Origin: an uncultured Pelagibacteraceae bacterium
GTDB taxonomy: Bacteria; Pseudomonadota; Alphaproteobacteria; Pelagibacterales; Pelagibacteraceae
Assembly: GCA_902593235.1 (NCBI GenBank)
Contig: CACJHS010000003.1
Span: forward strand, 1-62,201
Direction of reading: 5' to 3'
Length of the DNA stretch: 62,201 nt
Position numbers and translations under genes: made by a program. The notes under the pieces are model-generated. The model had not been told where the DNA came from. It ran no database searches and saw only the letters and a program-made list of their open reading frames with translations. Positions 51,393 through 54,648 of the stretch are shown one piece after another (the stretch's first letter is position 1; each line of letters opens with the position of its first letter).

Positions 51393-51935
51393 TTATTTTT
51401 TTTCTGTAGAGCTTTCTGATTTTTGTTCTTCTTTAGAAGCCTCTGCTGCTGGAGCCGCCTCTTTTTTAGGTGCTGCTTCTGCTTTAGGAGCCTCTTCTTT
51501 AGTTGCTTCAACTGCAGGAGCTACATTTTCCTCTGTAACTGTCTCTGGTTTTGCCTCGATATCAATACCAATTTTTTTTCTAATTTTTTCTGCAATCCTT
51601 GCTGATTTACCAGTTCTGTCTCTTAGATAATAAAGTTTTGCTCTTCTTACTTTACCTGATCTAATAACCTTAATTGAATCAATTAACGTTCCAAATAAAG
51701 GAAAAGTTCTCTCAACACCCTCTCCAAATGAAATTTTTCTAATCGTAAAAGATGAGTTTAAGTCTCTACTTTTTTTAGCAATACATACTCCCTCAAAATA
51801 TTGAATTCTTTCTTTTTTACCCTCGGTAATTCTCACACCGACCTTAACAACATCTCCAGGATAAAATTCTGGAATTTTTTTCTCTGAAAGAATTTTGTTA
51901 ACGTTATGCTGGTTTATTTCTTCAATTGTTTTCAT
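51393..51935 (-). CDS. rplS: 50S ribosomal protein L19 with Ala/Glu/Lys/Pro-rich C-terminal tail
   Basis: [74 protein letters not shown]; tail [26 protein letters not shown]. Start at ATG 51935. Confidence 0.94.
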
Positions 51936-51951
51936 GTTAATATTTATCAAG

Positions 51952-52638
51952 TTAATTCTTCTTATATTTTTCCCATAAATCTGGTCTTCGGTCGCGTGTT
52001 ATAGCCTCAGATTGAGATAAACGCCAGTGTTTAATTTTATTATGATCACCTGATAATAGTACGTCTGGCACAGCTTTTTCCTCCCAAATTTGAGGTTTTG
52101 TATACTGAGGGTACTCTAGAAGACCATTTTCAAAGGTTTCATCTAATTTAGAGTTTTCATTTCCTAATACACCTGGCAGCAATCTTAAAATACTATCTAT
52201 TACTACATATGCTGCTGACTCCCCACCTGACAAAACATAATCTCCAATACTAATTTCCTCAATATTTCTTGTTGAAAGTATTCTTTCGTCCACACCTTCA
52301 AAATGACCACAAATTAAAGACAGAGATTTTTCATTAGCTAGCTCTTTTGCTAAATTTTGATCAAATTTTTTTCCTTTTGGCGATAAGTATAAAATTCTCT
52401 CACTCTCATTTTTGTTTTCATCTAAAGACTTTGCGAGAACATCTGCTTTTAACAACATCCCTGAACCACCCCCATAAGGTGTATCATCTACTGTTTTATG
52501 TTTGTCGTCAGCTGCATCTCTTATGTTTACAACTTTAAGTTTCCATAAATTATTTGATAAAGCTTTTCCATAAAGTCCTTTAGATAAAGGACCAGGGAAA
52601 ATCTCTGGATAAAGTGTAAACACTTGAGCTTGCCACAT
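51952..52638 (-). CDS. trmD: tRNA (guanine37-N1)-methyltransferase
   Basis: [49 protein letters not shown]. Confidence 0.95.
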
Positions 52639-52652
52639 AAATAATCTTTAAA

Positions 52653-53117
52653 TTATTTTTTTTCCTCTGCTGGAGCTGCTTCTGCTTTTGGAGCTTCTTC
52701 CTTAGGAGCTTCTGCTGCTGTAGCTGCTTCTGCTTTTGGAGCTTCTTCCTTAGGAGCTTCTGCTGCTGGAGCTGCTTCTGCTTTTGGAGCTTCTTTATTA
52801 TCCTCTTCTTTTTTATTTCTCTCTTTTTTTGGCACTGCTTTATTTGGATTATTTCCATTTGCAGGCATAGGCATTAGTTCGTTCTCACCTAAAATTCTTG
52901 CTACTCTAGTTGTTGGTTGAGCTCCTTGACCAAGCCAATATTTAATTCTCTCAGCTTCTAGACCCACTCTTTCTTTTTTCTCTTTTGGTAATAGAGGATT
53001 AAAGAAACCAACCTTTTCTATAAATCTTCCATCTCTTGCAAAACGACTGTCGGCAACAACAACTTTATAAACAGGACGTTTTTTTGTTCCACCTCTTGAT
53101 AATCTTAATTTTAACAT
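52653..53117 (-). CDS. rpsP: 30S ribosomal protein S16 with repetitive C-terminal tail
   Basis: [43 protein letters not shown]; tail [16 protein letters not shown] repeated. Confidence 0.95.
52666..52803 (-). repeat. 48-bp in-frame tandem repeat (~2.8 copies) encoding the S16 tail
   Basis: Unit tctgctgctgKagctgcttctgcttttggagcttcttccttaggagct (full copy 52711-52758) with near-identical flanking copies; 16-aa unit APKAEAA[P/T]AAEAPKEE. Confidence 0.9.
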
Positions 53118-53129
53118 TTCTTCTCCTTT

Positions 53130-54488
53130 TTACTTTAATTGGTTAAATAGCTCTGGCGGTATACCTTTATCAGACATACCTTTCAGATTTCCTTTTGACA
53201 TCTTTTTCATCATTTCAGACATCATTTTAAATTGCTTAAGCAATTTATTGATAGTGGCCGGATCTGTGCCAGAGCCATTAGCAATTCTTTTTTTTCTAGA
53301 ACCATCTATTATTTTTGGGTTCTCTCTTTCTTTTTTTGTCATTGATAAAATAACAGCTTCATTTTTAGAAATTATACTTTCATCAATTCCCGCTGAATCC
53401 ATTTGAGATTTAATTTTAGAAACTCCTGGCATAAAAGACATAATTCCCTCAATGCCACCCATTTTTTTCATTTGTCTTAATTGAGATAAATAATCTTCCA
53501 TAGAGAATTGACCTTTTTTTAAATTTTCCTCTGCTTTTTTAAGATTTTCTTCTCCTAAATCTTGAGCCGCCTTTTCTACAAGGGATACAATATCCCCCAT
53601 ACCAAGTATTCTGTTTGCAATTCTATCTGGATGGAATACTTCAAGATTATCTATTTTTTCTCCTATACCTAAAAATTTAATTGGAACGTTTGAAACATAT
53701 TTCATACTCACTGCGGCTCCACCTCTTGCATCACCATCAGCCCTAGTTAAAATAATTCCAGATAAATTAACTGTATTTTTAAATTCTTTTGCCACTGAGG
53801 CTGCAACTTGACCTGTTAAAGAGTCTGCAACTAAGAAAGTTTCTGTTGGATTAATGACAGCTTCAATTTGCTTAATCTCACTCATCATTTGTAAATCAAT
53901 TTGAGTTCTACCAGCAGTATCAAATAAAATTATTTCAGCTCCATTTAAATTAGCGGCACTTATTGCTCTTCTACAAATATCAGCAGGTTGCTGACCTTCT
54001 ATAACAGGTAAAGTTAAAATATTATTTTGTTCTCCTAAAGATCTAAGTTGTTCTTGTGCAGCTGGTCTGTAAATATCTAGACTGACCATCATTACTTTTT
54101 TCTTTTTATTATTTTCTAAAAATTTTGCTAATTTTGCTGTTGTTGTTGTTTTTCCAGAACCTTGTAACCCAACTAACATCATTGGCACGGGCGGTACTGC
54201 GTTTAAGTTTATCTCATTATTTGTTGCACCTAATAAGTCTACAAGCTCATCATAAACAATTTTTACAACCATATCCCCAGGAGAGGTAGACCTTATTATT
54301 TCTTGGCCTAATGCTTTCGGCTTAACTTTTTCAATAAAATCTTTTGCAACATCCAAAGAGACATCTGCTTCAAGTAAGGCTTGCCTAATACTTCTTAAAC
54401 CTTCGTCTACTTGAGCTTCATCAAGTGAAGGTGCCTTTTTCAGAGAAGAAAAAATTTCTTCAAATTTATTTGTTAAATTTTCAAACAT
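53130..54488 (-). CDS. ffh: Signal recognition particle protein Ffh
   Basis: MLVGLQGSGKTTTTAKLA, DTAGRTQIDLQMM, methionine-rich C-terminal M domain. Start at ATG 54488 (MFENLTNKFE), not the ORF-track GTG/TTG-type start 54566. Confidence 0.96.
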   Translation of the reverse strand: MFENLTNKFEEIFSSLKKAPSLDEAQVDEGLRSIRQALLEADVSLDVAKDFIEKVKPKALGQEIIRSTSPGDMVVKIVYDELVDLLGATNNEINLNAVPPVPMMLVGLQGSGKTTTTAKLAKFLENNKKKKVMMVSLDIYRPAAQEQLRSLGEQNNILTLPVIEGQQPADICRRAISAANLNGAEIILFDTAGRTQIDLQMMSEIKQIEAVINPTETFLVADSLTGQVAASVAKEFKNTVNLSGIILTRADGDARGGAAVSMKYVSNVPIKFLGIGEKIDNLEVFHPDRIANRILGMGDIVSLVEKAAQDLGEENLKKAEENLKKGQFSMEDYLSQLRQMKKMGGIEGIMSFMPGVSKIKSQMDSAGIDESIISKNEAVILSMTKKERENPKIIDGSRKKRIANGSGTDPATINKLLKQFKMMSEMMKKMSKGNLKGMSDKGIPPELFNQLK

Positions 54489-54499
54489 ATTTATTACGC

Positions 54500-54602
54500 A
54501 TAGCAGTAACGCACTAGTGGGCGAACCCTCGCTGACTAGTGTCGATCTCTTTGTTTCCAAAGACACCGCAAAGTTAATGTTTTTGCGGAAACGGAAGCAA
54601 CC
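54500..54602 (-). ncRNA. Candidate structured RNA or ffh leader: three consecutive hairpins
   Basis: Stems CCGCAAA/TTTGCGG (54566-54572/54582-54588), TCTTTG/CAAAGA (54548-54553/54558-54563; GAAA loop on minus), CACTAGT/ACTAGTG (54512-54518/54535-54541; inner GGG-UUCG-CCC on minus). GC-rich island in an AT-rich genome. Confidence 0.55.
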
Positions 54603-54648
54603 TATAATAGAGGTTCAAAAAGTCAATAAATAAGTTAAATATCTATAT

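Follow-up and report, generated by a model that had tools for sequence, protein, structure and literature searches.

The alphaproteobacterial ffh RNA is a three-hairpin element that stays with the rpsP operon in an order apparently lacking the SRP

The hairpin cluster between ffh and dapF of an uncultured Pelagibacteraceae bacterium (positions 54500-54602 of the 62,201-nt stretch of contig CACJHS010000003.1, assembly GCA_902593235.1, that was analysed in full and is called the window here) is, by sequence comparison, a real structured RNA and the known ffh RNA (Rfam RF01793), catalogued since 2009. Comparative analysis indicates that the RNA is longer than its catalogue entry, a three-hairpin element of which Rfam models only the last hairpin, and that it is kept in one marine alphaproteobacterial order apparently without SRP. 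We propose, at a probability of roughly 0.55, that it acts in cis as the leader of the (ffh-)rpsP-(rimM-)trmD-rplS operon, with three hairpins and a promoter of its own, and that a factor bound to the third hairpin lowers expression of the operon. New in this work are the extended three-hairpin leader, the assignment of its strand by base-pair asymmetry, the rejection of a proposed switch and the separation of the RNA from the SRP. The features of the locus are as follows.

54621-54626, minus strand: -35 element TTGACT, directed towards ffh; TTGAC is conserved in 119/119 loci.
54599-54604, minus strand: candidate -10 element TAGGTT with a 16-nt spacer, assigned by its position relative to TTGACT and by TAxxxT in relatives.
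54582-54588 with 54566-54572, minus strand: hairpin 1 (H1), CCGCAAA/UUUGCGG, absent from the Rfam model.
54548-54563, minus strand: hairpin 2 (H2), UCUUUG-GAAA-CAAAGA, beyond the paired positions of the Rfam model.
54512-54541, minus strand: hairpin 3 (H3), CACUAGU-CA-GCGA-GGGU-UCGC-CC-ACUAGUG, the bulged hairpin of RF01793.
54504-54556, minus strand: RF01793 match (Infernal against Rfam 15, 56.9 bits, model positions 1-52).
54496-54511, minus strand: single-stranded tail from H3 to the region of the ffh start, with GCGAUnnUUGyUGGA as the consensus of relatives, from alignment column frequencies.
53130-54488, minus strand: ffh coding sequence, first gene of the operon, ATG at 54488 (open reading frame and homologues).
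52653-53117, minus strand: rpsP, ribosomal protein S16 (open reading frame, named from its translation; rpsP homologues were found with its protein).
51952-52638, minus strand: trmD (open reading frame, named from its translation).
51393-51950, minus strand: rplS (open reading frame, named from its translation).

The match to RF01793, the ffh sRNA, spans the full model (E = 3.5e-08) and lies far above the gathering score of 35 bits. The sequence-only reading that first drew attention to this segment had allowed that earlier screens might already have listed it, and they had. Meyer et al. 2009 (PMC2704228) report a motif that in Ca. P. ubique HTCC1062 lies on the minus strand of the ffh/dapF spacer and that also occurs in Rhodobacterales, Sphingomonadales and Rhizobiales. 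They describe one bulged hairpin whose stem covaries and in which two cytosines are almost invariant; spacer, strand, hairpin and conserved cytosines are all shared with the RNA of the window. The two differ in extent. The 52-position model covers the final hairpin only, with H1 and H2 beyond its paired part, and the account of the motif in PMC2704228, as far as it is drawn on here, is given without H1, H2, a promoter, or genomes lacking ffh in which the RNA precedes rpsP. Matches to RF01793 were found in 128/147 genomes of the window's family and in 61/240 genomes of the class; occurrence beyond the Alphaproteobacteria was considered and rejected, as all 55 matches among 299 genomes of the phylum fall within that class.

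The segment is the GC-rich island in an AT-rich genome that had been described, with 47.6% G+C against 30.5% for the whole window, a richness matched by only 0.2% of 103-nt windows. Its minus-strand fold is more stable than those of all 600 other 103-nt windows compared. The three minus-strand hairpins are present at 54512-54588 with the stem lengths originally given. The tetraloops held up in part: GAAA is the true loop of H2, while the UUCG sequence is present yet forms no tetraloop, given that H3 has a GGGU loop on a GCGA/UCGC stem. H3 additionally contains a C.C mismatch (54534/54519) beside an A.C pair (54533/54520).

All three stems are conserved and covary, the opposite of what the sequence-only reading had named as grounds for its refutation. 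Across 54 distinct sequences from the window's family, 99.6% of cells in the three hairpins were paired, as compared with 94.2% in shuffles, and two-sided changes occurred at 11 of 24 pairs (5.5 in shuffles). The covariation score was 0.212 against 0.105 in shuffles and 0.04-0.08 in slid controls; relatedness inflates the shuffle comparison, and it is retained in the slid controls, which score far lower. H2 contributes most clearly, with two-sided changes at 6/6 pairs and 100% of cells paired; H3, likewise 100% paired, has them at three pairs and H1 at 2/7. Both columns of the C.C mismatch are invariant in a SAR11 alignment, and the facing cytosines are kept in 14/14 further distinct H3s.

The same alignment speaks against an alternative fold. 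A GTGTC/GACAC complementarity does exist as the sequence-only reading stated, which had seen in it a competing helix and a possible two-state switch. That switch is rejected: the GUGUC/GACAC helix showed no two-sided changes in the 54 sequences and a covariation of 0.061, not above the 0.066 of shuffles. Its two inner pairs are unpaired in 22 and 13 of the 54 sequences, respectively, and the three outer pairs hardly vary and are hence mute either way.

Assignment of the strand relied on the fact that a G-U pair is tolerated in the transcribed strand and appears as an A-C mismatch in the opposite one. In the ffh sense, H3 from 58 other alphaproteobacteria contained 23 G-U and 1 C-A cells, and 14 further distinct H3s contained 7 and 0, respectively (counts of cells rather than of independent events). 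The asymmetry places the RNA on the ffh-sense strand, and comparison thus agrees with the minus-strand reading made from the letters. Folding energy alone would have pointed to the wrong strand, since against dinucleotide shuffles of 54500-54602 the plus strand gives z = -4.8 and the minus strand z = -2.2. The RNAalifold energy is also slightly better on the plus strand. Both values would suit a leader of dapF; we give that reading almost no credence and reject it, given the 23:1 and 7:0 ratios and a conserved TTGAC promoter that points to ffh.

TTGAC was found upstream of the RNA in 119/119 loci, within -110..-35 relative to the Rfam start, where shuffles led us to expect 7.1. Together with the candidate -10 element, it places the predicted transcription start at about 54590-54595, at the foot of H1. 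Since the element is conserved in every locus, the ffh mRNA is expected to begin with the RNA. Spacing on the other side of the RNA agrees. In the window 23 nt lie between the end of H3 and the ffh ATG, and the distance from H3 to the start codon is ~20-30 nt in SAR11 and ~20-55 nt in SAR11 and the apparently SRP-less order combined; the short SAR11 gap is too small to hold another complete promoter, so that, barring a start within the structure, the ffh mRNA must include it. The gene ffh lies directly downstream of the RNA in 114 of 119 loci checked; of the remaining five, two have rpsP and three are cut off by the end of the contig. In the window itself (51393-53117), there is no rimM reading frame between rpsP and trmD; loci L202 and L216 have rimM. 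An extension of the ffh coding sequence through the hairpins, from an open reading frame starting at 54566, was also considered and discarded, with the frame open in only 15/61 SAR11-family loci. As for transcripts, PMC2704228 cites metatranscriptomes as evidence for the ffh motif, and a Bartonella ‘ffH leader RNA’ is a published transcript (PMC7717549).

A further reading makes the RNA an independent, trans-acting sRNA whose transcript ends after H3, the operon being reached by read-through or from another promoter. Rfam types RF01793 as ‘Gene; sRNA’, and there is the S. meliloti candidate sm5 (dapF<ffh>, ~120 nt, ffh strand), a prediction (PMC2573895). A run of U7-U8, resembling an intrinsic terminator, follows H3 in one group of gut alphaproteobacteria, and 53 of 108 distinct tails have at least 5 U in 9 nt. 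About half of the tails are nonetheless U-poor, the window's included, so that the window has no good intrinsic terminator and a general one after H3 is rejected. The SAR11 gene start, moreover, follows only 20-30 nt past H3, and on contigs of sufficient length the RNA was never found apart from ffh or rpsP. We regard an sRNA of this kind as unlikely.

Alternatively, H3 and a U-rich tail could together form a conditional terminator, which the 5' end of the RNA would open by pairing with that tail. Such attenuation would be consistent with the U8 tracts and the 5'-end/tail helix of the gut clade. Across the set, an RNA's own 5' end and own tail beat swapped tails in 30 of 46 cases (mean -6.0 versus -4.6 kcal/mol), a preference strongest in the U8 group, albeit in a sequence set that is A+U-rich and related. 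Since the pairing is limited to one group and the window and many SAR11 genomes are without a U tract, we consider a transcription attenuator improbable in general; it may operate in the gut clade with its U8 tail, and not in the window. Long U tracts after H3 occur in L169, L170, L186, L191, L194, L195, L198 and L204, mostly gut alphaproteobacteria. In these loci the tract pairs with the RNA 5' end and both change together between species, and H2 loops are often UACG or UGCG (UNCG).

The gene context invites a connection to the SRP, and the RNA could in principle be SRP RNA itself. This was ruled out. As the sequence-only reading had already observed, the segment lacks the SRP RNA signature, with no match to RF00169 (bacterial SRP RNA) up to E = 10; the 4.5S RNA of SAR11 relatives sits at a separate locus. 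The two RNAs have in common that each is tied to Ffh, by function or by gene context. No 4.5S RNA was matched in the assembly to which the window belongs, which is 77% complete. Of 41 relatives, 23 score above the RF00169 cut-off and another nine narrowly miss it, from which it appears that the Rfam model fits SAR11 4.5S RNA poorly.

A more specific connection would be autoregulation, in which H3 imitates domain IV of 4.5S RNA and excess Ffh binds the leader and shuts the operon. As in H3, domain IV has GUCAG in its 5' strand and an A.C pair adjoining a mismatch. The recurrence of GUCAG in the 5' strand of H3, a putative likeness to 4.5S RNA, favours this reading, as does the fact that the RNA precedes ffh almost throughout. 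On its 3' strand, however, the mismatch region differs from 4.5S RNA. The authors of the 2009 report likewise state that the motif has no resemblance to the Ffh-binding part of SRP RNA (PMC2704228). The distribution of the RNA is also difficult to reconcile with autoregulation. In L202, about 2 kb separate ffh from the RNA downstream of it, whose single copy precedes rpsP-rimM-trmD-rplS; the RNA has stayed with rpsP and not with ffh. In this locus (L202:3458-7401), the intervening DNA contains a gene resembling cytidine deaminase and three reading frames of ~150 aa that are similar to one another.

The apparently SRP-less marine order (18 genomes, including G226, in one family here and three genera) separates the two further. 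The RNA is present in 14 of these genomes and is always directly before rpsP, with 85-92 nt from the start of the match to rpsP in 14/14 loci. On the far side, every contig of sufficient length shows dapF in divergent orientation, and in L216 rpsP-rimM-trmD-rplS follows the RNA (names from translations). Loci of the order are L154-L167, L172, L173, L181, L199, L205 and L216, from GTDB species genomes. The SRP54-type GTPase of Ffh and FtsY (PF00448) was over cut-off in 0/18 genomes, a weak match in G417 being discarded as the P-loop of a 310-aa protein that, as read from its sequence, is adenylylsulfate kinase. The Ffh M domain (PF02978) was also over cut-off in 0/18, with two sub-threshold matches broken by stops, and 4.5S RNA (RF00169) was not found in the 18 genomes. 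Both protein domains were recovered from 14/14 named control genomes, and SecY was found in 14/18 genomes of the order, including all six that are at least 90% complete. Here H3 shows 100% pairing and two-sided changes at two pairs, and by these compensatory changes the RNA appears to be still under selection without an SRP.

Retention of the RNA where no SRP is detectable removes an Ffh-specific role as the general explanation. Autoregulation by Ffh is accordingly disfavoured as a general function and strikes us as distinctly unlikely, while a role for Ffh in genomes that keep ffh is possible. The suggestion made from the window alone, a cis leader of ffh or a small RNA between two SRP pathway genes, stands as to a structured RNA in the ffh sense and calls for revision as to the link with the SRP pathway, since the RNA stays with rpsP where ffh is displaced or lost. 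SRP is called conserved in all living organisms in PMC7844537, and no report of its loss in such an order was found in the literature searched; relative to that literature, both the uncoupling of the RNA from SRP and the order apparently without it seem new.

As the RNA remains with the rpsP operon rather than with ffh, the simplest reading is that it is a leader of that operon. It would be a 5' leader of ~100 nt in the ffh sense, transcribed from its own sigma-70-like promoter, in which H1, H2 and the bulged H3 act in cis on (ffh-)rpsP-(rimM-)trmD-rplS. A trans-acting factor would recognise H3 with its C.C mismatch, and binding would lower translation or read-through of the operon, a sign of regulation that we infer to be negative. 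The ligand would most likely be an operon protein, or another factor of translation or ribosome supply, rather than Ffh. Against a leader mechanism, the spacing from H3 to the gene ranges from ~20 nt to over 100 nt, so that one common translational mechanism is not obvious. The RNA might also simply have kept an older trans function.

Known leaders of ribosomal protein operons include L19_leader and the rpsB and rpsL motifs. Like them, the proposed leader is structured, lies 5' of a ribosomal protein operon and is conserved widely in a single bacterial class. It differs in that the segment matches no Rfam ribosomal leader and no rRNA-like sequence was found in H3; mimicry of rRNA by H3 went unsupported in a crude sequence and hairpin scan against E. 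coli 16S and 23S rRNA, which revealed no likeness beyond chance. A gapped alignment made for this comparison scored lower than its shuffled controls and carries no weight here. Some of the ribosomal leader motifs compared here come from PMC2704228. A broader version of the leader reading holds that the ‘ffh’ RNA is misnamed, being a class-wide leader of rpsP-rimM-trmD-rplS with a ribosomal or tRNA-modification protein as ligand and ffh as an incidental member in most genomes, and that the marine order has lost the SRP entirely but kept the RNA. We advance it tentatively, at slightly less than even odds.

The ffh RNA has been described since 2009; the literature searched contained no tested function, and the role proposed in print is to regulate ffh (PMC2704228). 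In light of the comparisons above, the leader appears to extend beyond the catalogued hairpin, to three hairpins preceded by a defined promoter. Its preservation, with compensatory changes, in genomes without a detectable SRP points instead to the downstream ribosomal operon. If the RNA is indeed a leader of that operon to which ffh is incidental, the order apparently without SRP makes this reading testable.
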